A stretch of 64,000 nucleotides of DNA from Tomocerus qinae (Eukaryota > Arthropoda > Collembola > Entomobryomorpha > Tomoceridae): positions 20,809,013 to 20,873,012 of the forward strand of contig CM034547.1 in NCBI GenBank assembly GCA_020055645.1, given 5' to 3'. The translations under genes and the position numbers were made by a program. How positions within the stretch are numbered: the stretch's first letter is position 1; the number at the start of each line of letters is the position of its first letter. This document shows positions 13,564 through 59,765 of this stretch, one piece after another. Under the pieces are notes generated by a model. It was given only the letters and a program-made list of their open reading frames with translations. It did not search any database and had not been told where the DNA came from.

Positions 13564-14672
13564 TTATAACTCGTAGACATCTCTTTTGCAATTCATTAAT
13601 GGGCCGCATTTGAAGGTATTGAACCTGGGTGGAGTAGTGGAAACTTCATTGAAATGACCTGCGGAAGATGAGTAGATGTTGTATCCGGGAATGATGTGCA
13701 CTCTGACGTCGGAGCCACCACGGAGATTGTCGCGGGGACGGCGAGTGAGAGCGACGGACGTTTTGCAACAGCAGTAGTGAAAAAGTTGGACGTAACATCT
13801 GCGAAAATCCCTGTTTGCCATCGCATTAATGAGACTTCCTAAGCATGAGGGCAGAATGGCAGGCCAAACGAGTAATCTTTGAAAAGCTATTTGCTCCTGA
13901 CTGATTGAGGGAGTGCTGGATGAAGACGTCGATGTTGATATCGTCATCATCGTTGTGGTACTTGTCACAGGCATTCCGTACCATTCTCCGGACGAGCGAT
14001 GAGATTGAGATACGATGGCGACGACAATGGATGGAAACCAGATGAGGAAACGAGCAAGCCAGTTCCAGAAGTTCGATGTAACAAGTGCAAATTCTCTCGA
14101 TGTCAAATACGGCTTCGGTTTGTCCCAAGATCTCATTATGCAGACACATTTGAGAAAGCCAAGCCCGCCGACAGAGACAGAGACGAGGAAACACACTCCC
14201 AAGATCATCACCGACTCCAATAACGACTTATTTTCATTCCGTCGACCCGGGCTACAAATCGCGTACATTAAATGAGGCATCTGAACGAAATGTATCAAAA
14301 CTACTATCCCTGATAGAAGCCACATTATCAAATTCAACATCGTGACTTGGAAAACCGTGCAGATTGACTGTTTCGCTGGAACTAGCATTGGAGCGTGGTA
14401 GCCTCCAGCGTGATGATGGCTCTGCTGCTGTCGATTGTATTCCACATGACGGAGGGCCTTTAGTCGCAGGAAATTCTCAATCCCGATCGCTGCTGTAAAC
14501 ACTGCTGCGGTCAAACAGGACATGCTGCCGATCCCGTATTGCAGACGACATAGATTTTCAGAACTCTCTATTGAATTTTCAAGCTCTGTCAAAATCGCTA
14601 CGGAAGAGGCTGGCAAAACCACCGCTGTAATCAGTAAATCTGCCAGAGTGACACTCACCAGAAATGTATTTC
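13564..14672 (-). CDS. GPCR coding exon 2: TM2 to C-terminus
   Basis: This exon starts at the acceptor TTGTTGCAG|GA (minus strand) and supplies the second and third bases of the glycine codon that begins GNTFLVSVTLADLL. It encodes TM2 to TM7 and a cytoplasmic tail of about 80 residues with a CYVQLFHYCCCK stretch, a possible palmitoylation cluster. It ends at the TAA complement at 13564. The same frame stays open for about 40 bases upstream of the acceptor, into intron; the splice placement is preferred because TM1 is otherwise missing. Confidence 0.85.
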
Positions 14673-17600
14673 CTGCAACAAAACCACAAACCATATTAAC
14701 GACCTTTCTCATATCCTTTCGAATCTTATTCTTATCGATCCACTGTAAGGATACGACTTAGATAAATAAATTTACATAAGAACTGCAAGGACAAATTTCT
14801 AAGATGTGCATTTCAATAATGGGTTATATTTTCAGAATTAGAAGGCAACATCAAATCTAATATTGACTACCAAATAAACAAAGTAAATAGCATTCAGCAA
14901 GTTATATAGGTTAGCAGGATTGTTTTAGGTACGACTGTAATTCAATTCTAAAGGTTTTATTACAGTTTTCATTCATCCCATGCATACTCAACTAGAGAAA
15001 GTTTAGAAAACATCGACTGGAATTGGTAATAACTAAACATAAAGTGGGTTCAATACTGTCAGATGCTCAAAGGTACTTATTCAAGTCAGGATTGGTGTGT
15101 GTAGTGACTTACTTCCTAGAGGATATTGTGCTTTAAGTTGAAACGAGCTTATCTTTCATGTATCATCTGTTCAGCTAATATTTTGCAACCTCAATTTTGC
15201 CAAAGACATAAACTCAAGAATACTTATCCTTCCGTTCTACATAATATTCTTTTGATTTTGTTCTTGGCTGATACAATTTACTGTTGCTGCTAAGCACAAC
15301 AACAAAGATAAACATGTGCACGGTGCATCAAGGGTAACATCTTATAGATATTGGAATTCGAGTACACTTTATCTCGAGATACCCGTGTTCAACGAGTTTA
15401 TGAAGCTATGAATAAATATTCATATGAGAGTAGCAGCAGCGCAGTTTATTTATGGATTACTCCATTTCTATCTATGTGTCTGAGATAAAGCTTTCTTTTA
15501 AGTATTCATATTTACTCATCCATATGTTCATGTTTCCAAACACTTTCTCCCCATTTGTTACAGTAATAAGAAAGTAATAACCGAACTTCACTTTAGAAAA
15601 AAATGAGTATTAAGTCATGACATGGTTTTCTAATTCATTGTAGTCTAATGCTATTAATCCTTTATAGCTGCTCTATTTTCTATTTAAGTGGAAGACACCA
15701 AAGATTAGCCCAGCATTTTATAGCTACATGGGTGGCTATCATTAAAGACCTTCAGTATCCATTCTGGATTTCATCTGTCGGATGTTTCGGAGGAAGTAAT
15801 GGGTAATACAAAGCCAGTTGGCTTAGATATATGCAAAAGCAATGAACTGAAAGATGTTCGTGGACTGGTGAAAGTTAAAGTGACTTTTCGGGTTACTGGG
15901 ATGTAACTTGAGCGTGTGGTCAAACACAATAACTTTAGTAATCCATCACATAAAACCACGAAGCGCTGACTCAAGCACTGTACATACCCAACGAATAAGG
16001 TCAACTCCTGATGGCAAGTATATCACTAAAGACAAAGTTGTGTTCAGGGGAATCGCGATATCTCCTTCAAATGTCCCTTAGGGAGGTTGAACCTTCAAAA
16101 ACAGACGTGGGTTACCCAATGCTCATTCTAAATCTGACAAGAATTATACCAACGTATTTTTCCAATCGAAACTAGGTATATTATATCCTAAATACATTTT
16201 TTCTTTCGAATGATATAATTAGATATAATTATTAGCACTACGATGGCACCCGGCCTAAGAACAGTAGTGTAAGTGTATGTACAATAATAGGTATTTCATT
16301 CTCATTACTGCATTGTACAATTGCCAAAATACTGTTACATCGTGTAAAGAGGATACGATTCGCAAGGCAGTTTTGTTCTACTTTGGTTCTAACATGAGGT
16401 ATAAATACTCTGAGAACACACTGTAACTTGTATAATGGCCATCTTTGGCTTAATAATAATTTTTATTACTAGCCTACAGCACATTATGGAACAGTTCCCA
16501 ACAAAATGTCATTTCACTAGTACACAACTAAAACTTGTTAAACATGACTAGACAAAGTACCTATACCTACCTACTCTTTTGAAACATGATGTTTTATTTC
16601 CTTTCTTGGAAAAAAACTTTGTATTTTAGGGCAGGCAACTCAGCTGCTGAGTCGACAAATAATTTACGTACAAACACTCGTCACAGGAGAATATAGCCGA
16701 GTGACTACGTACTTATACCATACTCACTGTTCCATAAACTACGCACGGAATTCGTTTCTCGTCTTCCACAAAGATAATTCCTAGTCAGATAATACTAGGT
16801 ATTCACTTAGACAAATACTTCTGGGTCATATCCTTTTTCTTCAATCCTATTTTTCAACCTTTAACACAGTCGGCATTTGCTTGACAGGATCCGTAGGTAG
16901 TTCTAAGCTACCTATATTCTTTACATCTGTTACTCCCTAAATAACGTAAAGAGTTTATTAAATGCGTTCATATATTGGGGCATCACAACTAGTTCATGGT
17001 AGACTTAGTTCAACTCTGAATTATTCTAGAATAGTGTATCCGTAAAGCCAGCAAACAGAAATGTTGCACCTTGCTTTCCTTTCGATCTTGCTATATTTTA
17101 TCTAGGTTTCTCAGTAGAAAGGAAGGAAGGAGATGTGAAGGAAGTACAATTGGGGATTTACGTTAGTTGCCTGGCCTTTTAATAAGGATTATCCTATGTG
17201 TAGTATGTTGCATGTGTAAAACGTATTCCTACTACCTTGGAATAGCTACCTATATGTATTATTGGGGCAAATTTGAAGCCTTATGTGGAGTTGGCAATAA
17301 AATGGTGTAGCTATACAAGTGTAAGTAAAGCATTAGGTAAGGTAGAGTAGGATAAGTCTGTATGTGTATAGTGAGAGAAGGCTTGGAGTCCAAAGATTCA
17401 ATTCTTCTCTTCTTTGTGTTTGCAATATCAGTAAACTTGTCCATTTTCCCTTTTACTGACTGTTCGTCTGGTACTCCTTGGATGGTTCAGAAATCAATAG
17501 GATTCTTTATTATGGAAGAAAAGAAACTGAGAAAGTCAAACCTAGGCAAACATTCACTTTGGTTGTGGGAGAGAGGATCTAACCAAAGTAACAATGGAAG

Positions 17601-42816: not shown

Positions 42817-45800
42817 ATGAAATTTGCTAAGTGCCTTTGCTCCCGATGTAGGCTGTACTTAAAAGTCGATTCAGGTAAATTTTTAAATGCACTTATTTTT
42901 TTCATTCCATGAACATAAATAATCCTCAATTATCGGCGTATCCCGTAAAGAAATGTGTTTTTACAGACGTTTATAATAACATAATTATTTGTTTAGAGTA
43001 AAGTGATTTACTCTGTCTTTTTTAATAAATTGTTTTCATGTAGCAAGAGGAAAGTATTTAATTAATAAAGGAATTAGGAATTATGGCCTTTATCTTTATA
43101 AAGTCTTTCAAAGGATTTATGATTTATATGAGTTATCTCTCGCTGTTAATTCAATAACGAAACTATATACTACCAGCTTTCGCCAAAACTTTCATCAAAG
43201 AGGTTTTGTCAAATTATGTCTATGACCACCTTATGTTGAAAGGGTAAAAATTGGTGGAAGGAATTAAGAGAAAGTTATGTTGTGAAAGTGAACTTTCTAT
43301 TATAGTAATACATTGTTTTAACGTGGCAATTTTTTTGAAGATTTTGACTACGATCAATATGAAATGAAAGTGCAATTTTTTGAACGCCGCGAGTATCAGG
43401 TAAGTGCGAGTACTAAATCATTTTAGTCACATCGACTGTTTATTGATTCATATAATATTGAAAATACTATGGGAAACTTTTTCAAATTGCAGCACTACTT
43501 GTTAGAAATTGCGAAAAGGAGGAACATAATTGCCTGCCTTCCAACTGGCAGTGGGAAGACATTTATTGCTTATAAATTGATAGAGTACTTCAATGAAGAT
43601 TTGTTGAAGTAAGAAATACTTTGTTAATTAATTGTACTTATATTCTAGTCTATTAAATTCATTGATAATAATTATTATTATACTATTGTAAATTACAGTA
43701 AGAGCAAAAAAGTGTTTTTCTTAGCCAATACTATACCTTTAGTCAATCAGCAAGCTGCCTTCTTTGCTCGTCATACCACATTGAACGTCAGACATATCAC
43801 AGGTGATATGGAAGTTGATTACTGGTCGGAAGAAAAATGGAAAAATATAATTGAGGGATTTCATGTTAGTGCATTTATAAGCTTGTTACTACTCCTAAAA
43901 GTCTGTTGTACTCCTAAGCGACTCCTAAAAGTTATCCTTCCTCAGTGCTAAATGTTTACCAAATAATAATATTTTCAATTACTTCAGAGTTTGTAATTAA
44001 GAAAAATCTATGGTGTGACTCCTGTTGGTTTTAAGTATCTTAAATATTAGTAAACTGTAAGACAATCTTAATCTGATATTATACTACATTGGCGATGCAG
44101 CACTGCACGTAGGATTAACGGAAGGAGTCCTTTTAGGAGCAAATTACTTACAAATGTATAATGGATTTTGTATTAAATTGGTTAATTTGTTCTTCAATTT
44201 GTAACTTATCTAAATAAAATTTTACAGATTATGGCAATGACGGCACAGATATTTCTGAATTTGATTCGACATGGTTATATACAGTTTCGTCAAGTTGCCT
44301 TGATAGTGTTTGATGAATGTCATCATGCTGTAAAGGAGCATCCTATGAATCAGGTAAAAATGACATTCTGACTTTATCCATATTATCCTAAATCCAAGTA
44401 AGCCAAAAAGCAAGAGCAAGGCTGTCTCATTTGAAGCATTGAAGGCACTATATGTTTTGAAATACTTATAGCCTTGAAATACTTCCCATCAAAGACGTAT
44501 TGAGAGGGGGCGGGGGCTTCACATGTTGAAGCCCCCCCCTCCCCGAAGATAAAGAATTTTTTTTTCGCAAAATAGCAAAACATTTGACAGCGCACAGGTC
44601 GAGTATTGGCCATTTTAGTCCAGTTGTGACTCATTTTCGTAAAAATGCCAAAATTTGTCGCATACATATAATGAAAATGTCCATATATGAAATTGTATAT
44701 ATTGACTTTCGATTGTAACTGGGTACGATGCGGCATTGACTATGGGAGTAAGGTGACTAGCTTGCCTTCGGTGCTATTATTTGAACAGATTTCATGTATA
44801 ATAATACTATATGTTTGTACAGATAATAATTGGCACTTAAATAAAACTAATCTGAATCTGAATCTGAAACATTAGCCATTCCCCCGAAACATTAACCCTA
44901 AAGGATTAAACTGACATTTTCTTGGCAGTAGTTGTATGATAGTTTTTTTACTCCCATTTTCAGATTATGCGAGAATACCATCGCACAAAAAATGCAACGA
45001 CACACGAAATATATCCTGTACCAAGGATATTAGGATTGTCCGCAACCATCATTAAAGGAAACTGTAAGCCGTCCGAGGTGGCCGACAGGGTCACTGAGTT
45101 AGAAGAAATTATGGATTCTATTGCTGTGACCTACAAAGATTACGAGGAAGTTATGCAGTACGTTACATTATTTTCTAAACCATAGCCAAATTTCAGTCAA
45201 CTTAGTAATTAAAATTAAAATAAGTGGAAAACTTATTTATGCAGAAATTCTACAAATGCAAAAGTAGACCCAATTCTTGTCTATACATCAAAACAGTTTG
45301 ATTGGTACCCACCAGCTCTACTTTCAGAAATTGAGGATGTCTCAAAACGCCTTCAAGTATTTCGTAACGAAAGGAAAAAGCAAAAGATGGCTTTAGCTAA
45401 AGTTCCCATTGAAGGAATTCACTCTACTCTAAGAAATTCGAACAATCTATATTTGACGTTTAAAAGTCCTAGCCCTGGAGACTTAAAAACTGCTGTAGAC
45501 GATGTTCGTCATACATATGAAGAACTTGGTATTTAAAAATGTATAAATCATGTACAACTACTATAGCTCCACAAATATCTTAATTTTATTTTATCTACTA
45601 TTATTTTTATTTAGGTCCATACTGCGCCGTCATTGCTATCAATTTGAGACTAGCATTCATTGAATTCAGTTTAATGGATTTGAATTCCGGTGCCATAAAA
45701 TTGTGGTACCAAAATGTGAAAACATTTCTTCTGAAAATGAAGTAACAAGGATAACTAATTACTTTGTTTTAAATTTTGAAGTATATACCTTCATTACTAT

Positions 45801-48800
45801 GTATATTATTGGAAACGATTGCATTATGGATGTATATATATAATTTTTAGAACTATTATTATTGACATAATGGCTAGCCATAGCGAAGACGACAAAGTTC
45901 TACACTTTATTTCTCCAAAATTAAGAGAACTCTTGAATATCATCTGTCAATTTCGGTTTTATATCCTTTACTTTACGTTTTGTATATTCTTGTCCATGTT
46001 TTGGAATGATTTTAAAAGTTTAAATTCAATTTTTTGTGACGACACAGGGATGCTGAACTCACTGAAGATGAAGGGGAAAGCTCCAAGGATGATAAAAGTC
46101 TGTGTGGATTGGTTTTCGTAGATCGTAGAGCGACAGCCCAAGTTTTAGCGTGGTATCTTAAGGTATTACTTTAGTATCTTTCTGGGAGTAGGAAAGATTT
46201 GAGTTGGTGATGAAACATTGGCCAAACTAGGTCATTCCTGACGTATATAATATGGAAATGACTTTGTTGCCACCAGCCATTCAGTCAGTATAATTGATAA
46301 TCAGAATGAAGATCAAAATCATTTATGAACTTAACCCAACACCCATTGAACAAAATCTAACGTTTTATACCAATAGGATCTGGCCGCTGTGAATTCAGAA
46401 TCTTCGAAGTTGTATTCATTCATTAGAGCAAATTTTGTCGTTGGTACGAGTCGATGCCCGTTCGAAACAGTGGAAAGCCGGATTTATGCCAAGAAACAAA
46501 CAGAGACTATAAATAAGTTAGTGACGTTTGATTACAATAATTTGTTATACACCTACCTTACTATGAAAATAAAATTGATAATGCAATATTAAATTATTTT
46601 TACTACGTTTAATTTAATTACAGATTTCGAAAAAAGACATTTAATATTTTAACTGCCACTAGTGTGCTCGAAGAAGGGATAGACGTTCCAAGCTGTAATT
46701 TAGTGGTTAGATTTGACCCTATACCAACATATACTTCGTACATTCAGTCTATGGGTCGAGCACGGAAAAAGGATGCAATATTCAAAATATTTTTAAAACC
46801 CGATAACCACTTGAAAGAGATACAAAAGATTGAGACATTTAAGCGAATTCAGGAATACTTAGTCAGTTATCTTCAGAAGCAAGTTATGAAAGTAGATTCG
46901 GATGCAACCCCAAAAGCTGCATTTCATCTGGATGAAATTCCTCCTCTGTGCCCAGGAGGTACCCCAGATAGTCCTAGAATCACAATGGACTCTTCCTTGG
47001 AAGTCATAGACAGGTATGTTATTTTTCACATGGGCTTGCCATTGGCAGGGTAGATAAATAAGAGTATTACTGTAAATGGAGACCAAACAATTTACTCTTA
47101 TGGGAATTAGACCTAAATATGGGTTTGTTTTAGATAATTGTAAAACGTGATTTATTCTCACTTCTAAGGTATTGTATGATTCTTCCATGTGATGGTGTGT
47201 CTACGTTGCATACCGTGTCTTGGTTTCAGGAACTTCCTAACATCCAATATCAAGCATTTCTAAAATTGCCAATGAACAGTGCTGTGAAGGGAGTTATTTC
47301 TGTAAGTTTGTATTATTATATTCCAAGTACGCCGGGCTAGGTCAGCGTTATTTTTATATAACCTTTTCACAGAACATTATTTCATGTGACTGATGGTAGA
47401 AAATTACTGATTTTTTAATAATAGGGACTTCCCATGAGTAATAAGGAGTTGGCAAGACAGGCTGTATTTTTAGAGGGAGCCAAACGTTTGCATGAAGCAG
47501 GAATTTTAGATGAAAAATTAATTCCTGTGCACCCCACATTTCCAGGTAAGGTGGAAGCATTTTTTACTGTTCTTACACCTTTCTCCAAACCAGAAGACGG
47601 TGAAATGGAAAAAGAAGAAGGAGAGATTGTTGAAAAGCCTGTTAAAAGACCGGAGTGGTACTGTAAAAAAGTAATAAAAAATTCATGTACGTCAAATTCT
47701 ATTGTAATCAAATACTAATTAATCATAATGTTCATAATTAATTCGACAATTGTAATAATTTTAGGAATGTAAAATACTCTTTGGGGCAGATGATTGCATC
47801 CGAAATGGTGGAAATTACTATGTTGCTCGTTTATGCATCCAAACAAACAACCATGGGGAAAGTGCTGCCTCTGATTCAGATATACTATATAACTTGGATA
47901 AAAGCGACTATGCTTTTGGCCTCTTAAGTTGTGAGAAGGTTCCTAATGTAAGAAATGTCTGAGTTATGTAAAAAAAAGTTTTTTAAATTTATATGTAGTT
48001 GTATTTACTAAACAATAAAATAACCTTTTTTAAAAATAAAGATTGGAAATTTTCCACTTTATGGCGCCTTCGGTAACCTTGATGTGTCCCTACAACATGT
48101 TAAAAACATGGTCACCGTTAATTTTGAGTTGCTTGAAAAAATTCAATACTTTCAAGACACCTTTTTTAAGGATATTTTAGGCGTACGACATCCGTTATTT
48201 CGTCGTAAAGGAGAACAGAAGTATTACATAGTTCCAATGTGCCAAGGTTCGATTTCTTCATTTACTTCTGTTCTTATTTATAGGAACCATTTTAATTACA
48301 TCTCTTGGTTTATCACTTATATTTAAAGATATGTGTAATTAACTTAGAAAAAAAGTAGCTCAGTGAATGAAATACGCAAATTTTTTACATTAAAGTTCAT
48401 CAGGCTTACTTAAAGTAGTGACTATTTTTCGCAGTGGGAGGAGATTGGAAAATATCTTTTGGTGAAGCAGATTTTGATTTGGATAGCCTATTTTCTTGCC
48501 AGAACATGAAACCTCCACGGAAAAACAAGTATGCAAGCTACCAAGTTCCTGCAAAGGTGTTTAAACCATCTGTAGATTACGACCGGAAATATAAAGGTCG
48601 CATTGTTATTCCTTGGTATCAGAGAAAACCTCGACCAGTAAGCAAAACTTATTTCTATTTGTCATTGAACTGTTGTGTATGTTAAAATATATTAAAGCTG
48701 TGTTCAGTTAAACTTTTGAAAAGAAAGCGTAATAATTGTATTTCACAGTTTTAAGATGACTAACTAAAGTGAATTGACATGATATATTGTAGCTATATAT

Positions 48801-51800
48801 CGTTGATTCAGTGGCGGACAATATGAGCCCTTTGTCTACATTTCAAGGAGGATATTATACGGACTATAAGCAGTTCATGAAAGGACAATTTAATGTAGAC
48901 ATTGAGGACACCAATCAACCGATGCTTAAATGCAAGATAGCTGGAATTGGGCAAGGGCAAAAACAACTTAATTATCTGTTGAAGAAATATGCTAAAGAAG
49001 ACGAATTTCCTGTATTTCTTGTTCCTGAACTTTGCTTTGTTATACCTGTTCCTGCTTCTTTTATTGTTCAGCTGAAGCTGCTTCCAAGCATAATTCACAG
49101 ATTAAGTCGACTTTTGTTAGCAAAAGAAATTATGGAAGATGTAGGAAAGTCGTGTGGGTGGGCAGGAACTCTGATTAATGATTATAGTTGCGCTGATAAT
49201 GAAATTTTAGCACTAACGCGTACTCATGAAAAACAGAGGAAGGAAGAAGAGGAGAGACGAAAATTAAGGCTTGAAATGCGAAGCAGAATTAAAGTGATCA
49301 ATAAACCAATTCAGGATCCACAAAATTTAGAAAATCGTGAATTACATTATGAATTTATACATCCAAACAAAATAACTAGTAAAGACATAAAGTTATTCCA
49401 TGAAGCAGTATCCATTCAACATGCAGCAAAAAGATTAACAATCGCTAACGATATTGAATATGAAGATTCAAGCGAACTTTCTCCTTCGTGTAAAATGGGT
49501 AAGTGAATCTAATCATTAAAAAGAGAAACAATTTCCAGAATAAGTTTTCGAAAATAGTTCGAAATTTTGTAAAAGTTTTAAACGTCGATCGAGATCCCCT
49601 TTTAGAATAGTTTTCCTAGCAGAATAAACCAAGTCCCCCGAAAATAGGTAGGGTAGTTTCGGAATAAATGTTTTGTCTCTGAATGTCACGTTATCCGAAA
49701 CCTTCCAAACTGCGGATAAAAAAACTGGAAATGGTTTTTCTTGTATAAATAAGTAGATTCGATTCTGAAAGTAAAAACTTTGGCTGTGACAATTGGTTTC
49801 CAACCTACGTGATCTCTTAAATATAAGTATTCTAGAATATAATAAATAATCACATACAAACGATTATTAATTAGAAGTATAATTCATATACGAGAGGATT
49901 TAAAAATTAAAGCAATCTTGTCATTTATTGCAGTTCTGATGGATCCTAAAGACATCAATCTGCCAAAATTGGAAATGTCAATCAATTTGGAAGAAAACCG
50001 AGGCCCTTCCCTGCTAGCAATCATGGAAGTAAGTCCTGCTGTTGCTGTACTTAATGTTTGATGTTATTGGAATTTATTACATCATGTATGGCAACTAATA
50101 TTGCATCATTTTCTTAGGCAATTTCAGTATCAAAATCTAATGAAGGAATATCCAACAATGACTACAGGGTAATTGGCATGTCGTTTCTAAACTATGCAGT
50201 TTCCTCATATTGTTTTTTCAACTTTCCGGAATGGAATGAACCCCTAATGTGCCAACTTAGAAATAAGCTACTCAGCATTCAGACATTGTGCGCTACGGCC
50301 AATAAGCGTAATATTGCTGGAATTTTGAGTGGTAGTTATTTTTACCCAAATGACACTTGGCTACCTCCTGGATTCAAATTGCTTGACGGTGTGGCCGAAA
50401 TTGCTGCTGACGCCAAGGTGCACTTAGGAGTGTATGATAAAATCCTAAAAACAATCTCGGTAAGAACGTTTTGTAGCAATGTTTGGTAGGTAAAAATGGT
50501 AAAATAAGTTACATTGATTTGTTATCATATCATATAAAACGATATCAAACAATAAACTATTATTAATTTAGGTAGTAAGGTAAATTGTCGACCTTTAATC
50601 TGCATAATTAGAAGTTGAATCAATGCTATAAATATTGCCTACTTCCAATTTCTGTAAGCTCTAGTATGTACCATCAAACAAGTCTCTTTTGTTTTTGATT
50701 GTTGAGATTGAGGTAGGTTGAAGCTCAGTATTCCATAGATTATCTTATTTTACTCACCTATTATCACTTACCAGCTTACATACCCTTTTGGCCTAGTAAT
50801 TGTCTGAACCATACAAATGTTAACCAAATATTAACCCACGTGTACCGTGTACCCAACTTTCAACACCAACGTTTCATTTGAGTTGAGTAAAATTCTATTA
50901 AGCAAGCCTAGTAAAAAGTCGGTGAAAGTTTTGTAACGAGTAAGTGGAGGGAAAGTGAAAGTACTTGTCAATTATCTTTTGGGTCTTACGGTAGATATGC
51001 TTAGAATCAAATCCTATTGAAATCCCTATTATGCAAGCTTAAAAGCAAATTATAAGTACATATAGCAATTGATTTAATTAAATTTCTGTAATATATTTTC
51101 GAAATACGAAATATATATCTAACCTTCTGCTGTTCCTTGTGATTCAATGTTCCATATAATTTTACAGAAAATGAATGGAGAAGAGTTGGAAAGATACGTT
51201 ATGAGGGAAGCTCCAAACGTTTTATCAAATCCACCTGCCAAAGGAAAATACGTTATCAAACATTCCACATATACTCATTCCGAGATACCTGATGTGACTA
51301 TAGCTAACGGAATCAATGCACTAGTTGGAACTTTCTTCACCCAGTGTGGTCCAGTTGGGGCGTTTAAGCTTTTGGAATGGCTAGAATTCAAATGTCCCGA
51401 TTTACATGGAAATGATTTGTATCTAAATGAAAACAGGACTATCGACGAAAGTGTACTTTCAAATAATACAGCGAACGAAGTACAAAATATTGAAAGACTG
51501 CTGCCCGGTCTAAAAAAATTTGAGGAACTAATCAATTACACGTAACTTAAGCTATTACATACAATAATAATTATAGAAATTTTATTACGAAGTTTGTGCT
51601 TTAAAATGAGTACACATTTTTTGTGAGATATATATGGTTGTTATTGTCGTTCAATCTTTTCCATTTGCTGAAATAGAAAAAAATGATAAATGGTAGTATA
51701 TACTTTCTGATACACAATCTGACAACTCACTATTCACTTAAAGAAATTTTATGATTTTTCACGTATCAATTAATTATACCATTTTGAGGCATTTCTCACA

Positions 51801-53887
51801 CAAATGTTACTTTGTTGTAGCTAATAGTATGATCGTCTTTATCACAAGACTTCTATTGAAGCGGCATCGTGCATTGGAGTTGTAGTAATAACAGTATTGC
51901 GTTTGCAAATAGAAACATACAATTTTGGTTTATTGATGAATGAAATTAATGAATGAATGAGAGTTCGATTACAAGGTGTAAAAACGTAGCCTTGTGATAT
52001 TCCAGTTTAGCCTTTTGAGACTATTGTTATTATTGGAAAGTTATGGCCATGCTGTGTAAGAAAACTCATGCAAAGCTTTCCACTAACAGTTGCCCTTAAT
52101 ATGTAGGTCAAAATATTGTAGTCCCGTTATGTACATGGATGAAAAATTGTAACCGCTTACCACCTGATCCAAACTAGTCTTTCAGTCGAAACCCAAACTC
52201 TGTTGTTACGTAGAATGTTTCAGAAATTTTTTATTGTTTGTTGTATATTAAAGTCTCAAAGCCTTTAAGACTCATCAAGTTAAGATATTACCAATATATG
52301 TACTATAAAATGCATCCAAAACATTAATAGCTCATATACCTTATTTTAATTTTAGAAAATTATATAAAAAGTATACCAAACGTAATAAGTTATTTAATAT
52401 CCGGATTCTGAATCTTTTCAAAGCGGCACTTCAATAGAAGTTTTCCATCAATATATTGGTTATTATTTTTTATATATTTTCTTTGTTGCAAAGGTTTGCT
52501 GACAAAAAATTGATTCTTGAAGCTTTTACACATCCATCTTATCCAGCTAACAACTTTTCGGAATGCTATCAACGCCTGGAGTTTTTGGGGGACTCTATTT
52601 TGGGTTAGAAACTGATCAAAACAATTATATATTTCTTGATTTATGTTGTTTTAGTCTTGATTACTAAATGTTGATAGAGGAGGTGAGGTGCCTTCGTTTT
52701 TCATGTTCTGTTCATTCTGTTCCTACTTCTGATATACTTTTAGCTTATCTTAAGATTCCTTCTTCAAGTCTACAATCTTTCAGATTATAATATATTTTTA
52801 ATTTGGATTTACTTAACCTTTCTTTTTACAGATTTGTTGATAACAAATTACGTTCATACAGCTGCCGAACGCAAATTTTCAGAAGATCAACTCCGGGATA
52901 TTTGTTTGGCCTTGATTAATAACATAACTTATGCCTCTTTAGCTGTCCGCTATGGCTTTCATAAACATTTACTCTCAATGTCACAAGCTCTGGTTGATAT
53001 GATTGACAATTTTGTAGTATATCAAGAAGCCGTTGAACATCAAGTAGTGGGACATGTGAGTCTCCTATTTTACGTATTCATATTATATAACAATGAATTT
53101 TAATATTTTTATTTTTGTTAATTTGTGGAATGCGTGGCCATAATGTAATAATGACCTAATAGTTTACATTGGTAAGCGATGAGGAATGCTGGGGCCCAAA
53201 GGTGAAACATTGATAAAATATATATTTATATTTAATATATATAGATTTAGTAAAACTACGAGAATACTGACAGATTAGATACCTTTTTTTGTAAGCACGT
53301 GGAAGTTCCTAAAGTACTTGGTGATATATTTGAAGCCGTCGCTGGTGCTATATTTATAGACAGTAATAAGTCTTTGGACGTTGTATGGTCAATATATTTT
53401 CGGCTTATGCAAAATGAAATAGGTATATAAAAAACCATCAACATATTTAATATTTTATAGACTGATTTTCAAACGTTTAATTTTAATGATTTTCGAATTT
53501 ATTCCTTAACTAGATACTTTTCTTGAGGATGTACCAAAATCCCCTTTCCATGAGCTGAAAGACAAGTTTGGAGACAAGTTGGAATTACAGTATGTTTTCA
53601 TTTGTTCTCTTAATGCAATGACTGTGATTGTGAAAGTTGTAAAATTGAAGCAAATGGACGTTTAATGGAAATTAATGTTTATTAGGAAGTGTACATCTAA
53701 GAAAGTTAGAGCACGAGGCCGAGAAATGTGTAAAATTTCTATTGGAGAATATGGACACTATTTTGGAGCAGGGACCAATATTGCCCGAGCAAAGTTTGCT
53801 GCTGCTAAAATAGCTTTAAAAATGATGAAAGAAGAAGATGCATTCACCAAAGATCGTGACGCAAAAAGTATTATGTTGATGATGTAA
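42817..53887 (+). CDS. Dcr: Dicer ribonuclease with degenerate RNase IIIa centre
   Basis: Endoribonuclease that cuts dsRNA into small RNAs for RNA interference. I joined 26 exons in frame with GT-AG introns: 42817-42874, 43341-43399, 43493-43608, 43699-43864, 44228-44353, 44964-45157, 45245-45528, 45615-45741, 45851-45955, 46048-46162, 46377-46516, 46624-47013, 47169-47301, 47425-47670, 47765-47947, 48042-48246, 48435-48637, 48793-49498, 49934-50028, 50118-50459, 51168-51541, 52494-52603, 52832-53055, 53296-53422, 53514-53589, 53686-53887. The product is about 1701 residues, normal for an insect-type Dicer-2. Order: helicase (Walker A near 55-62, DECH 162-165), dimerisation domain, PAZ, RNase IIIa, RNase IIIb, dsRBD. 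RNase IIIb is intact; RNase IIIa lacks every catalytic acid. Exon 1 is tentative; translation could start at ATG 43364. Dcr-1 versus Dcr-2 orthology is not decided by eye. Confidence 0.93.
43493..47013 (+). other. Dcr: Dicer helicase domain (exons 3-12)
   Basis: RIG-I-type ATP-dependent helicase module, residues about 40-626. Motif I is LPTGSGKT, motif II DECH, motif III GLSAT (199-203), and the C-terminal lobe has [14 protein letters not shown] and motif VI QSMGRAR (538-544). The usual Dicer reading of motif VI is QSRGRAR, so the third position has changed from Arg to Met while the Q and the two following arginines remain. ATP binding and hydrolysis motifs look functional. In insect Dicer-2 this domain supports processive cleavage of long dsRNA. 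Confidence 0.9.
44494..44541. repeat. G-rich/C-rich hairpin, likely MITE remnant in Dicer intron 5
   Basis: CGTATTGAGAGGGGGCGGGG leads into the palindrome GGGGGCTTCACATGTTGAAGCCCCC (split as two 12-base arms at 44512-44536). The opening phrase resembles the inverted right end of the hAT MITE at 226-473 (GTATTGAGGGGG). The other end was not found, so this is probably a truncated copy in the 610 base intron. Confidence 0.4.
47169..47947 (+). other. Dcr: Dicer dimerisation (DUF283) region, exons 13-15
   Basis: Residues about 627-814. The stretch [20 protein letters not shown] followed by [11 protein letters not shown] is the typical end of the Dicer dimerisation domain, a dsRBD-like fold that in other Dicers contacts partner proteins. 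The segment after it ([18 protein letters not shown]) is an acidic linker, then a WYCKKECKILFG stretch enters the platform region. Domain limits are approximate. Confidence 0.7.
48435..49140 (+). other. Dcr: Dicer platform/PAZ region (exons 17-18)
   Basis: Residues about 885-1065. It includes [16 protein letters not shown], an aromatic-rich [12 protein letters not shown] helix, the [10 protein letters not shown] strand and the hallmark FLVPELC (1025-1031) followed by IPVPASF and [12 protein letters not shown]. In known Dicers PAZ anchors the 3' overhang of the dsRNA and the following connector helix sets the product length. Nothing here looks broken. Confidence 0.8.
49934..51541 (+). other. 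Dcr: Dicer RNase IIIa domain, catalytic residues lost
   Basis: Exons 19-21, residues about 1186-1455. The fold signature is recognisable: [10 protein letters not shown], then [18 protein letters not shown] where active Dicers read ERLExIGDSFLKY; later WLPPGF; then [15 protein letters not shown] where active Dicers read IPDKSIADCVEALLG. The metal-binding Glu and Asp of the first motif are R1234 and M1238, and those of the second are N1378 and N1381, with spacing of 4 and 3 kept. All four acids are gone, while the reading frame and splice sites are intact, so this looks like selected pseudo-enzyme status and not gene decay. Confidence 0.85.
52494..53422 (+). other. Dcr: Dicer RNase IIIb domain, intact
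   Basis: Exons 22-24, residues about 1456-1610. [10 protein letters not shown] is followed by [18 protein letters not shown] (E1485, D1489), and [18 protein letters not shown] carries D1577 and E1580. All four metal ligands of an active RNase III site are present at the normal spacing. The neighbouring RNase IIIa partner in the intramolecular dimer lacks its own ligands, so this would be the sole cleavage centre. Confidence 0.88.
53514..53887 (+). other. Dcr: Dicer C-terminal dsRNA-binding domain
   Basis: Exons 25-26, residues about 1610-1701. It begins [19 protein letters not shown] and ends with [20 protein letters not shown], the alpha2 helix of a dsRBD, where the basic contacts to the dsRNA phosphates usually lie (usually KxxAK; here [11 protein letters not shown]). 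The coding region stops with TAA at 53885-53887 after a short acidic/basic tail. Confidence 0.85.
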
Positions 53888-55637: not shown

Positions 55638-55826
55638 CTTTTAGTGGTCGTTCGATTCGCATCGAAATAAACCAAGCTGCGAGTATTATAAAAAATTTTG
55701 ATAAAGTGAAATCGTTGGTAAAATACGGTAGTGGTAATAAATATATTAATCACATTGTATCACATTGAATCAATATTAAAGTTATAATATTATACTATTA
55801 TATCGATATTTGAAGTTTCTAGCAAG

Positions 55827-56936
55827 ATGACTAGGTCCAGCTCATCCAGTTCTTCGGAAGACCGCAAAAGGAAAAGAAAAAAGAAAAAGCGGTCATCACG
55901 GCTGGACAAAATCGAAAACTCGTTACAAAAATTATCAAAACGTATGGAAGAACATCTGAATAAAGATTCTTCCAGGGGTCATCGATCATCTCACGTAGAT
56001 AGATCACGTTCTCCTCTCGGCCGCTCAAGAAATCAACGGTCCAGTAGCAGTGAGAGTAACTCCAGTCATAAAAGTGATTCAAATAGCACCAGAAGATCAG
56101 AGCGTAAGGTCAGTAGCCCAATTGGAGCTAACGAAGGCATAGTTATAGCCGAAACATCTGACAAAAATAACGAGCAGGTCTTAATTATAGACCCGTCTGA
56201 CGACGAAGCCGAAAATTTATTGGGAGCCAACCCTTTGGCTGAGGAGAAAAAAGGTAAGGCCTTACATGAAAAAATTTCGGTTCGTTGGAATGCGATTGCT
56301 CAAAACGGGATTTCTAAGGAAGAAAGAGAAAAGATTGCAAAGGACAATCCTTTACCGGTAAATGGGCAATACAATGAGCCCCTTCTAAACCCAGAATTAA
56401 ATCAAGCAATTCCTTCTTACGCTCGGGACAGAGATACTAATCTACGTAAGGTTCAATCAAACCTGACTATCTCTATAACAGGTATCGGAAATATTTTAAC
56501 TTCATTGTTAAATAACAAAGAGATTGACCGTTCAAAATTAATTGAACAACTCAGCATTTCCGGAAGAAATCTGGTAAGTGCACAGCATTTCGTGTCGAAA
56601 ATTAGACGCAAATCAGTTCAATCAAACATTAAGGACCCAGTGATGAAAGACGTACTCTCTGAAGTACCCTTATACCCTTTACTCTTTGGATCGGACCTTA
56701 GCGAGAAAATAAAATCTGCTCGCAGTATCGCTAAAGTGGGAAAAGACTTAATCCAACCCACCGAGAGCCGAAAGACTTCCGTCACAACTACAAAATCAAA
56801 CGACAAATATTATAGAAGTTCTACAAAATCCACAAGTGGGTCTCAGCCTTCCCGATCTTTAAACTACAAACGCCCGTTCCAAGCACCCAGCAAAAAGACG
56901 GGGGAACGGAGCGGGCAGAGAAAGTATCACCGTTGA
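55827..56936 (+). CDS. DIRS Gag-like protein
   Basis: A 369-residue frame starting with ATG about 190 bases after the left terminal repeat. The N-terminus is a Ser-run followed by a Lys/Arg block (KRKRKKKKRSSRLDKIENSL) and a predicted short coiled coil, then an SR-dipeptide-rich region to about residue 95. The middle (about 120-300) is a more globular part with NPLAEEKKGKALHEKISVRW, and the C-terminus is again basic and Ser/Arg-rich. No zinc knuckle is seen, as is usual for DIRS Gags. It should bind nucleic acid and package the element RNA. Its stop at 56934-56936 lies inside the next frame. Confidence 0.8.
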   Translation: MTRSSSSSSSEDRKRKRKKKKRSSRLDKIENSLQKLSKRMEEHLNKDSSRGHRSSHVDRSRSPLGRSRNQRSSSSESNSSHKSDSNSTRRSERKVSSPIGANEGIVIAETSDKNNEQVLIIDPSDDEAENLLGANPLAEEKKGKALHEKISVRWNAIAQNGISKEEREKIAKDNPLPVNGQYNEPLLNPELNQAIPSYARDRDTNLRKVQSNLTISITGIGNILTSLLNNKEIDRSKLIEQLSISGRNLVSAQHFVSKIRRKSVQSNIKDPVMKDVLSEVPLYPLLFGSDLSEKIKSARSIAKVGKDLIQPTESRKTSVTTTKSNDKYYRSSTKSTSGSQPSRSLNYKRPFQAPSKKTGERSGQRKYHR

Positions 56937-58405
56937 CAGCTGAGGTAAGTATTCATGCAGGAAGGCTAAAACATTTCTCAAACAAATGGAAAGAAATTGG
57001 TGCTGATCAAGTAGTAATGAGTATTATCAAGGGATATTCTATTCCTTTCAGTGCAAAACCAGTTCAGTCGAACTTACCCATTTCTCCTACACTTAGTCCC
57101 AGCGAGGAGAAAAATATGCAGAATTCAATTAATGAATTACTAGCTAAAGGGGCAATTAAACCATGCCATCCTGAACACGACCAGTTTCTATCAAATATAT
57201 TTCTTGTCCCGAAACCTGACGGGTCTCATAGGTTCATATTTAATTTAAAAGAACTTAACACATTCGTAATCAAAGAGAAGTTTAAAATGGAAAATCATAA
57301 AACGGTTTTGCAAATAATGCAACCAGAATGGTATTTAAACAAAATTGATTTGAAGGACGCATATTATCTCATACCGATTAGATCTAAGGACAGGAAATAT
57401 CTAAGATTTATTTGGAAAAGCCAGCTATATGAATTTACATGTTTGCCATTTGGTTTGTGTTCAGCACCAAGGGTGTTCACTAAAATGATGAAGCCAGTCG
57501 TGGCTCTTATAAGAAAGATGGGAATTCTTATTGTAATATACCTAGACGATCTCTTATCGTTATCAGAAAGCAAAATGAAGGCCAGAGAAACAATGAACTA
57601 TATTCTAGAATTGTTTTCACGCTTAGGTTTAGTAGTGAATTATGAAAAATCTGAAATTGAACCAAGTAAATCAATACAATTTCTAGGATTCATATTCAAA
57701 ACAAATGATATGACTATAACATTACCTGAGAAGAAAAGGGAACAAATTTATAAAATGTGTGGTTCACTCTTACGAAGGAAAAAATGCACGGCATTAGAAT
57801 TATCAGAGTTCATCGGTAGTTTGATAGCATCTACCCCAGCCGTACCATATGGAATGTTATATACCAAAAAGTTAGAAAGGAAGAAATTTTTAGCATTGTT
57901 ACCTGATAGAAATAACTATTCAGTCGAAATTGCATTGGATGAAGCTGTTGTTTTAGATATTAAATGGTGGGTAAACAATGTCAGAACAGCTGTTGGCCCT
58001 ATTCGATCTGATTCATATCAGATAGAGATCTATTCCGACGCATCAACCACTGGATGGGGTGCGGCGTGTAACAATAAGTCTATAGGAAATTTATGGTCTG
58101 AAAAAGAAAGAAAATTTCACATAAACTATTTGGAACTACTAGCAGCATATTATGCTCTTACGAGCTTTGCGAAGGGAATAAGAAATGCACAAATATTATT
58201 GTACATAGACAATACAACTGCTATAAGTTACATAAACCGTATGGGTGGTGTTAGATATTCCCATTTACATGACATAACCTGTAAAATTTGGAACTTTTGT
58301 GAATGTAACAATATTTGGATTTTTGCTACGTATATACCATCATCCAAAAACATTCTAGCAGATATGGAATCTAGAAAACTGTTACTGAAACTGAATGGTC
58401 TTTGA
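56933..58405 (+). CDS. DIRS reverse transcriptase and RNase H
   Basis: A 490-codon frame, in -1 phase to Gag. The frame is open from about 56816, so it overlaps Gag by about 120 bases, and it has no ATG until residue 29. A -1 ribosomal shift or an unusual start is therefore implied; the A-rich CAAAAAG at 56891-56897 is a candidate site. RT features: NIFLVPKPDGSHRFIFNLKE (89-108), KIDLKDAYY (D139), LPFGLCSAPRVF, and the polymerase box YLDDLL (203-208). RNase H features: YSDAS (D369), YLELLAA (E401), YIDNTTA (D426) and ILADMESR (D477). All catalytic acids are present. The frame drifts into an unrelated tail after ADMESR and stops at 58405. Confidence 0.88.
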   Translation: MTAEVSIHAGRLKHFSNKWKEIGADQVVMSIIKGYSIPFSAKPVQSNLPISPTLSPSEEKNMQNSINELLAKGAIKPCHPEHDQFLSNIFLVPKPDGSHRFIFNLKELNTFVIKEKFKMENHKTVLQIMQPEWYLNKIDLKDAYYLIPIRSKDRKYLRFIWKSQLYEFTCLPFGLCSAPRVFTKMMKPVVALIRKMGILIVIYLDDLLSLSESKMKARETMNYILELFSRLGLVVNYEKSEIEPSKSIQFLGFIFKTNDMTITLPEKKREQIYKMCGSLLRRKKCTALELSEFIGSLIASTPAVPYGMLYTKKLERKKFLALLPDRNNYSVEIALDEAVVLDIKWWVNNVRTAVGPIRSDSYQIEIYSDASTTGWGAACNNKSIGNLWSEKERKFHINYLELLAAYYALTSFAKGIRNAQILLYIDNTTAISYINRMGGVRYSHLHDITCKIWNFCECNNIWIFATYIPSSKNILADMESRKLLLKLNGL

Positions 58406-58818
58406 GTACCAAAGGTTTTACAAAAATAGCAAAGATATTGGGAAATCCTTCTGTGGATTTATTTGCTTCCATAAGTAATGCTAAGTGTAAAAAATACATG
58501 TCGTGGAAACCAGACCCTTTAGCATACAAAGTAAATGCTTTTACCCAGTACTGGGGCGATTTAAATTTCTATGCGTTTCCACCTTTTAATATGGTGTTAC
58601 GAGTTCTTAAGAAAATTCAAACCGATAGAGCAATGGGGATCGTAGTAGCCCCATACTGGGAAAATCAGTCGTGGTTTCCTTTGTATTTCAAGTTACTGGT
58701 TGGAGACATCGTATTCATTAAACCTAATAAAAATAATCTAACTTTTGGCAATAGGTCGCACCCGTTAGCCAATACAATTACACTGATGGCAGGAGTCTTG
58801 TCAAGCAAGCATTTTTAA
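58402..58818 (+). CDS. DIRS methyltransferase-like domain
   Basis: A 138-codon frame, again -1 to the preceding one, open from 58375 in a 30 base overlap. It contains VDLFAS (18-23), SWKPDPLA, AFPPF (58-62) and PYWENQSWFP, the pattern of the DAM-like adenine-methyltransferase-related domain that follows RNase H in DIRS and related elements. In other DIRS elements this domain is normally part of the RT/RNase H protein. The reading TEWSLSTKGF just before the first listed start codon continues the expected protein, so the break at 58373-58405 is either a one-base loss or a frameshift site. Whether the domain methylates DNA is unknown; it may simply be structural. Confidence 0.75.
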   Translation: MSTKGFTKIAKILGNPSVDLFASISNAKCKKYMSWKPDPLAYKVNAFTQYWGDLNFYAFPPFNMVLRVLKKIQTDRAMGIVVAPYWENQSWFPLYFKLLVGDIVFIKPNKNNLTFGNRSHPLANTITLMAGVLSSKHF

Positions 58819-58826
58819 ACCGTGGA

Positions 58827-59765
58827 GTGGGCGAAGATGCTACAGATATAATCTTAAACTCACTCTCAATTTCCTCGTGGAAACAATACAACTCAACATT
58901 TAATAAGTGGATGAATTTTTGCCAAGAAGAAATTATAAATCCATTCAACGCTTCCGTACCGGAAGTAACAAAGTTTTTAGCCCTGTTGACAACCAACAAT
59001 ACTGGTTACAACAATCTTAACACCGCAAGATCAGCCTTATCTCTTTTATTATTGGATATTGACGGTTATGCAGTAGGGAAGCATCCGGTAATTACTCGAC
59101 TAATGAAAGGTATTGCAAACCGGAGACCTCCAAAACCAAAATATGATTATACTTGGGACCCAACTATAGTCATTACTTTTCTCCGTAAATGGTGGCCTTT
59201 GCAAACGCTATCGTTGATTCAACTCTCAGAAAAATTAGTTACTACCCTAGCACTGATCACCGCTCACAGGATACAGACTATATCGTGCATTAAGTTAGAC
59301 CATATTTCTTATCACGATGATAGATTAGAAATATTTATTTCAGATAAAATTAAAACTAGTGCTCCTGGCAAATCACAGCCTTTGCTAATTTTACCTAAAT
59401 TTAAAGATCAACCCGAATTATGTGTTGCCAATTTATTGCTGGAATACGTTTCTCGCACATCTTCAATCAGAAATAGTGAGCAATACTTATTTTTGGGAGT
59501 AACCAAACCTCACAAGAAAGTGGGATCTCAGACATTAAGTCGTTGGGTGAAATCAGTTTTATCAAAAGCAGGGATAAGTAGTGAATTTGGCAGCCATAGT
59601 TGTCGACATGCAGCTACATCATTAGCATATAAAAAAGGTATTTCTATCGAAGAAATTCGGAAGAAAGCCGGATGGTCACAAAATTCTTCCGTTTTTGTAA
59701 ATTTTTATAATTTACCTATTGTCAATCCTTGTACTTTCGCTAATTCAATATTTAACATAGTATAA
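58827..59765 (+). CDS. DIRS tyrosine recombinase (YR)
   Basis: A 312-codon frame counted from a GTG; the frame is open from 58755 and overlaps the previous one. The sequence upstream of the GTG (KQAFLNRG) resembles YR N-terminal sequence, so translation may begin earlier without an ATG. An N-terminal SAM-like core-binding domain (about 10-125) is followed by the catalytic domain: AHRIQT (R148), a candidate beta-hairpin Lys (K173/K175), HSCRH (H257, R260), AGW (W283) and VNFYNLP with nucleophile Y294. All five key positions of an active tyrosine recombinase are present. It would integrate the circular cDNA at an ATT core. Confidence 0.87.
   Translation: MGEDATDIILNSLSISSWKQYNSTFNKWMNFCQEEIINPFNASVPEVTKFLALLTTNNTGYNNLNTARSALSLLLLDIDGYAVGKHPVITRLMKGIANRRPPKPKYDYTWDPTIVITFLRKWWPLQTLSLIQLSEKLVTTLALITAHRIQTISCIKLDHISYHDDRLEIFISDKIKTSAPGKSQPLLILPKFKDQPELCVANLLLEYVSRTSSIRNSEQYLFLGVTKPHKKVGSQTLSRWVKSVLSKAGISSEFGSHSCRHAATSLAYKKGISIEEIRKKAGWSQNSSVFVNFYNLPIVNPCTFANSIFNIV

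Follow-up and report, generated by a model that had tools for sequence, protein, structure and literature searches.

The springtail Tomocerus qinae carries a Dicer-2 gene in which all four acidic metal ligands of the RNase IIIa domain have been replaced and those of RNase IIIb are complete. It lies in the window, by which we mean the whole 64,000-nucleotide stretch of DNA that was analysed (C2:20809013-20873012). A second open gene elsewhere in the same genome is in the same condition, and the dead IIIa domain is almost certainly maintained by selection. As a whole, the evidence probably describes a long-lived Dicer-2 paralogue whose IIIa domain has become a maintained pseudonuclease and whose most likely role is that of a helicase-fed one-strand cutter.

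A Dicer-2 gene with altered RNase IIIa ligands

The initial annotation had proposed an otherwise complete Dicer at this place, and its view of the architecture is supported by a 26-exon open gene with the full set of Pfam domains. The order in the window protein is helicase, DUF283/dimer domain, platform, PAZ, RNase IIIa, RNase IIIb and dsRBD, with matches above the Pfam cut-offs for DEAD, Helicase_C, Dicer_dimer, Dicer_platform, PAZ, Ribonuclease_3 (two stretches) and Dicer_dsRBD. Searches of the PDB with this protein returned fly Dcr-1 and Dcr-2, mammalian Dicers and plant DCLs, and both its architecture and its descent identify it as a Dicer. The helicase motifs GSGKT and DECH, predicted to serve ATP hydrolysis, are present in the window protein and in the paralogue described below (L016). 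Residues are numbered on the 1701-aa model that includes the upstream first exon, which equals the numbering of the initial annotation and is that of a 1674-aa model plus 27. The gene and its IIIa features, in coordinates of the window, are as follows.

42817-53887, plus strand: half-dead Dicer-2 gene, 26 coding exons, GT-AG introns, single open frame, 1701 aa
42817-42874, plus strand: first coding exon, 19 residues; a homologous first exon (MKFPKCPCSQC...) is visible upstream of paralogue L016
43341-43399, plus strand: second coding exon of the Dicer-2 gene
49934-50028, 50118-50459 and 51168-51541, plus strand: coding pieces of the RNase IIIa region
50166-50168 (AGG) and 50178-50180 (ATG), plus strand: first IIIa ligand pair replaced, E by R1234 and D by M1238
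51306-51308 (AAC) and 51315-51317 (AAT), plus strand: second IIIa ligand pair replaced, D by N1378 and E by N1381

Directly downstream of the gene lies a retroelement (55788-59765, plus strand), presumably DIRS/Ngaro-like, and a 397-aa open frame elsewhere in the window (13564-14757, minus strand) gave a weak match to the 7tm_1 family of rhodopsin-type receptors (26.8 bits, cut-off 30.5). The retroelement includes two open reading frames.

56816-58405, plus strand: reverse transcriptase ORF, part of the retroelement
58755-59765, plus strand: tyrosine-recombinase ORF, part of the retroelement

A catalytically complete Dicer has four acidic ligands in IIIa, where the window protein has R, M, N and N instead; the initial annotation had named these four residues, and it was exact in each case. 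The correspondence of residues holds in alignments both to Drosophila Dcr-1 (PDB 8dfv), in which dyRvigMsf falls on LETIGDSF and iaNgiNal on IADCVEAL, both motifs being free of gaps, and to 231 homologues. The latter are distinct proteins from three homologue searches (best 120 of 606 matches, 4 of 4, and best 120 of 1492), and as top-scoring matches they represent neither a random sample nor a census of Dicers. Among those listed, 228 of 231 carry EDDE in both centres; the exceptions are two proteins of a thrips clade (P0121 and P0122), with ligands lost in both centres, and a fragment lacking the C-terminus (P0124).

Two objections foreseen in the initial annotation, a misread or misassembled region and an alternative exon restoring the acidic motif, were both addressed. 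A misread is excluded by the four altered codons, which are spread across two exons, and by the independent locus L016, where the four sites read K, M, N and N. No alternative acidic exon was found within the window by tblastn with six Dicers (E<=1), a search that gave, besides the Dicer-2 exons, two minus-strand matches (E 0.98 and 0.73), neither of them spanning a ligand motif. An alternative register was likewise rejected, as no gap-free shift brings acids to the ligand columns, and so was D1232 as a ligand, since it lies two residues N-terminal of R1234 at a spacing to the conserved glycine that, judged by eye, is unfit. The dead IIIa (50139-50306, plus strand) also gave a match below the cut-off, maybe by chance, to mL44, a mitochondrial ribosomal RNase III-like protein (E 0.0037, 17.8 bits, cut-off 27).

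Conservation was scored at positions shared by at least 90% of the 228 reference Dicers, ligands left out. The window protein keeps 18 of 32 such positions in IIIa, the lowest among the 231 rows scored, and elsewhere 26/30 in the helicase, 45/57 in IIIb, 11/16 in DUF283, 23/34 in platform-PAZ and 11/14 in the dsRBD; the figures for Orchesella are 26/31 in IIIa, 23/30 in the helicase, 44/57 in IIIb, 13/16 in DUF283, 22/34 in platform-PAZ and 12/14 in the dsRBD. Fisher tests, uncorrected, gave p = 0.027 for the window IIIa against that of Orchesella and p = 0.011 against Folsomia. When branches were compared on a fixed tree, the ratio of IIIa to the rest of the protein was highest for the window among 24 rows (1.44), with Ixodes Dcr-2 (1.37), Glandiceps (1.32) and Limulus (1.31) near it, and the IIIa/IIIb ratio ranked ninth of 24. 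This test points in the same direction but weakly, and we do not regard the acceleration of IIIa as strong proof. The picture is of a burst of change in IIIa when catalysis was lost, followed by constraint in the new state.

A second half-dead copy and selection on the dead domain

The genome searched comprises 334,443,149 bases in 115 contigs, in which a Ribonuclease_3 search found 18 places and a PAZ search 71 matches. Ten loci were fetched and eight of them proved to be Dicers by tblastn: one Dicer-1 (L009), six Dicer-2 genes (L010-L015) and L016, which is by far the nearest to the window gene; the other two (L017 and L018) matched in their RNase III parts alone. L009 and L010-L015 have EDDE in both centres and hence all eight ligands, so that a search for another Dicer with active IIIa, as the initial annotation had suggested, turned up seven ligand-complete candidates. 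Including the window gene, the genome thus holds at least nine Dicers, of which seven are ligand-complete and at least two half-dead. The models of L010, L014 and L015, which were used for ligand sites, tree and yardstick dN/dS, hold 3, 1 and 1 stops, maybe modelling errors. L011 and L012 form a nearly identical Dicer-2 pair about 200 kb apart, and three of the genes L010-L015 lie near C1:137.0-137.4 Mb. The PAZ matches, counted as pieces and with near-identical copies included, fall in Dicer loci in 8 cases and elsewhere in 63; many are on C3 and C1, several of those on C3 with identical scores. The 63 matches outside the Dicer loci suggest a large, partly recent expansion of Argonaute/Piwi genes, with many candidates.

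The second half-dead gene, L016, is located on contig C1 (the window gene being on C2) and has K, M, N and N in IIIa and E, D, D and E in IIIb. Its product is 76% identical to the window protein over 1649 aligned residues, and its spliced model has corresponding exons and an uninterrupted frame, except for one 4-base exon that we took as an aligner error. Between the two genes the overall dN/dS is 0.195 (Nei-Gojobori; bootstrap 95% 0.168-0.226), and by domain it is 0.121 in IIIa (bootstrap 0.076-0.188), 0.075 in IIIb (0.036-0.150), 0.226 in the helicase, 0.220 in DUF283, 0.207 in platform-PAZ and 0.225 in the dsRBD, making IIIb the most constrained of the six. The IIIa value, a check that the initial annotation had called for in related species and that here compares two copies of one genome, indicates purifying selection. 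Recent gene conversion does not explain this conservation, because dS in IIIa, at 0.73, is similar to that elsewhere in the gene. Complete Dicer-2 pairs served as a yardstick, albeit one with high, partly saturated dS and rough gene models: their active IIIa domains gave 0.160 (L010/L013), 0.274 (L014/L015) and 0.064 (L011/L012, nearly identical genes), with no value for L010/L014, where dS is saturated, and the dead IIIa therefore lies within the range of active ones. The conclusion that this is not a pseudogene, drawn at the outset from intact frames and splice sites, is thus strengthened: neither a broken frame nor a dN/dS near 1 is seen, and the open paralogue L016 shares the dead IIIa.

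All trees were made by a quick method, and long branches may meet in them, as Folsomia with Orchesella. A 41-row tree places the window protein within the Dicer-2 clade, together with Orchesella and Folsomia, rather than with Dicer-1; in another tree L009 pairs with a Dicer-1-like protein of Allacma fusca, with which it shares 1407 of 2220 aligned residues. The other springtail Dicer-2s in the sample (the six complete copies, Orchesella and two Folsomia proteins) together form the sister group of the half-dead pair, and this group has a support of 100, or of 99 when both RNase III domains and L011 are left out. The pair's place outside them persists without the RNase III domains, under a mixture model, and its stem is long (1.06 and 1.14 changes per column). 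If this placement is right, the duplication would provisionally predate the split of the sampled springtails, and the half-dead lineage would have been lost, or have escaped annotation, in the others.

RNase IIIb and the likely mode of action

The initial annotation called IIIb intact. This stands for its four ligands, which are complete (E, D, D, E), but not for their surroundings, where changes affect several near-invariant residues of the IIIb helices as well as the IIIa residue that adjoins the IIIb centre; moreover, the interval assigned to the feature, 49980-51420, takes in the IIIa ligands but leaves the following IIIb residues outside.

52494-52603, 52832-53055 and 53296-53422, plus strand: exons with the main part of RNase IIIb
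52579-52581, 52591-52593, 53323-53325 and 53332-53334, plus strand: IIIb ligands kept, E1485, D1489, D1577 and E1580
52894-52896 and 52903-52905, plus strand: IIIb socket residues facing the IIIa centre, T replaced by R1514 and R by C1517
50250-50252, plus strand: C1262, corresponding to human S1344, a IIIa residue next to the IIIb centre

According to passages of PMC6695490, S1344 in IIIa of human Dicer adjoins the IIIb centre, its homologue T1733 in IIIb adjoins the IIIa centre, and the mutation S1344L impairs IIIb; passages of PMC3991619 describe T1733 and R1736 as parts of the IIIb socket that receives the IIIa 'ball' (1732 is printed there twice, and we take the second as T1733). The T and R of this socket are found in 228/228 reference Dicers, and the window protein has R and C, its paralogue Q and C. 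Loss of these residues at the sites equivalent to T1733 and R1736 means that the part of IIIb serving the dead centre has changed too, and an altered socket beside a dead centre lets the composite-centre model of Dicer be tested in a natural protein. At the place of C1262 all 228 reference Dicers have S or T, and both half-dead copies have C; the IIIa-socket arginine beside the IIIb centre is retained. Further changes in the window IIIb are P to E and G to D in a loop, and the replacement of LTDLRSALVNN by eleven other residues. Given the cysteine in place of S/T, the P to E and G to D exchanges and the other changes in the IIIb helices, we speak of a predicted rather than a demonstrated IIIb activity. 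Selection bears on this as well, since in the yardstick pairs, with the same saturation of dS, IIIb gave 0.034 (L010/L013), 0.037 (L014/L015), 0.032 (L010/L014) and 0 (L011/L012), values below the 0.075 of the half-dead pair, which would count against an unchanged IIIb. On balance, we lean towards a IIIb that still cuts, as its ligands would suggest.

Cutting of one strand by IIIb, which the initial annotation had offered beside a partner role and dsRNA sensing, is proposed by analogy with the human IIIa mutant D1320A. Each RNase III domain of Dicer cuts one strand, with IIIa acting on the 3' arm of the pre-miRNA and IIIb on the 5'-phosphorylated arm, as set out in passages of PMC7827160. In the springtail protein, the ATP-dependent helicase would feed in dsRNA, as it does in Drosophila Dicer-2, the pseudodimer of IIIa and IIIb would grip the duplex, and IIIb alone would cut, so that a single strand would be cleaved, which by the human rule would be the one with its 5' end at the bound terminus. 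The products would be nicked duplexes or single-stranded pieces, not 21-nt duplexes, and they might be used by a special Argonaute or by the complete Dicer-2s. A dead IIIa predicts that the protein alone makes no duplex siRNAs of ~21 nt from long dsRNA. To our knowledge, small-RNA production by a one-strand Dicer has not been described from any animal; if our reading is true, helicase-fed, IIIb-only cutting would yield small RNAs as nicked duplexes or single strands. Evolution appears to have kept a half-dead Dicer in two copies beside seven ligand-complete Dicers, which provides a natural system for asking what a one-strand Dicer produces, whether nicked duplexes are usable by Argonautes and what new use an RNAi enzyme makes of a pseudonuclease domain. 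More speculatively, springtails may have evolved old, selectively maintained natural one-strand Dicers that serve a dedicated branch of their large set of PAZ proteins, a tentative extension that we would not yet favour.

The main rival explanation is a non-cutting dsRNA sensor, decoy or scaffold, whose helicase, PAZ and dsRBD would bind or travel along dsRNA and recruit partners and whose IIIb ligands would be retained to bind metal or RNA, cleavage being slight or absent. Such a role would fit the altered IIIb helix and the cysteine next to the IIIb centre, and in thrips P0121 and P0122 long open frames persist although the helicase motifs, and ligands in both centres, have been lost; a pure sensor, however, would not need the four IIIb ligands, all kept in both copies, and IIIb is the most constrained domain. 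We consider this explanation unlikely, if worth serious attention. Less likely again is a partner subunit that would give helicase, binding or one cut to a complete Dicer-2, which would make the second cut. Six ligand-complete Dicer-2 genes are at hand in the same genome, and a compensating paralogue has been suggested, in a passage of PMC3991619, for an Echinococcus Dicer with a lost aspartate, but the two centres of a Dicer normally pair inside one chain. That the gene is decaying towards a pseudogene agrees with the poor retention of conserved IIIa positions and is very improbable in view of the 26-exon open frame, the second open copy in the same state and the dN/dS values, overall and in IIIa. 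An artefact of misassembly, misread codons or an overlooked acidic exon is scarcely credible, with the same substitutions at the independent locus L016 and such an exon absent from the window.

Comparison with known Dicers and RNase III systems

In domain order, helicase motifs and clade, the window protein is like other arthropod Dicer-2 proteins (Drosophila Dcr-2 and the Dicers of Folsomia candida and Orchesella dallaii), from which it differs in the replacement of all four IIIa ligands and of the socket T and R of IIIb. The nearest database protein, among the best 120 of 1492 matches, is about 31% identical to it. The thrips proteins, P0121 of Thrips palmi (1627 aa, QNNE/ASRE) and P0122 (1600 aa, QNNE/ASKQ), are likewise arthropod Dicer-2s with degenerate RNase III ligands, but unlike the window protein they have lost ligands in both centres as well as the helicase motifs, and they form a separate long branch nested in the insect Dicer-2s. 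This position led us to reject the thrips gene as an orthologue of the window gene; with its degenerate helicase motifs, it represents another Dicer that degenerated independently.

Dicers with an altered IIIa are already known. Passages of PMC3991619 report the loss of RNase III catalytic residues in platyhelminth and cnidarian Dicers, and passages of PMC4791657 report changes in one or both motifs in Trichoplax DCL1b (IIIa) and DCL2b (IIIb), Naegleria DCR3, diatoms and others. Like Trichoplax DCL1b, as portrayed there, the springtail protein is a natural Dicer with changed IIIa catalytic residues. In those passages the platyhelminth, cnidarian, Trichoplax, Naegleria and diatom losses are noted from alignments, whereas the springtail case adds two copies, dN/dS, the facing socket and complete paralogues.

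The human IIIa mutant D1320A yields precursors nicked in the 5' arm and no 3p strands, as stated in passages of PMC12700799. The springtail protein resembles it in its inactive IIIa and probably in its IIIb, which is active in D1320A and ligand-complete in the springtail; unlike this laboratory mutant of one ligand, it is natural, has been kept and lacks four ligands. In the RNase III pairs of kinetoplastid RNA editing, a catalytic protein joins a degenerate partner, and one live and one dead domain together cut one strand; these pairs are separate proteins and include no Dicers, unlike the single-chain springtail protein. In the literature searched, as represented by the openings of abstracts and by passages, we found no Dicer described in which selection has kept a dead IIIa beside a live IIIb. 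As far as those sources show, it is new for an arthropod Dicer-2 to have lost all four IIIa ligands with its IIIb ligands complete, and new, too, are the two open copies, the purifying selection on the dead domain, the changes in the facing socket and the seven complete Dicers alongside.
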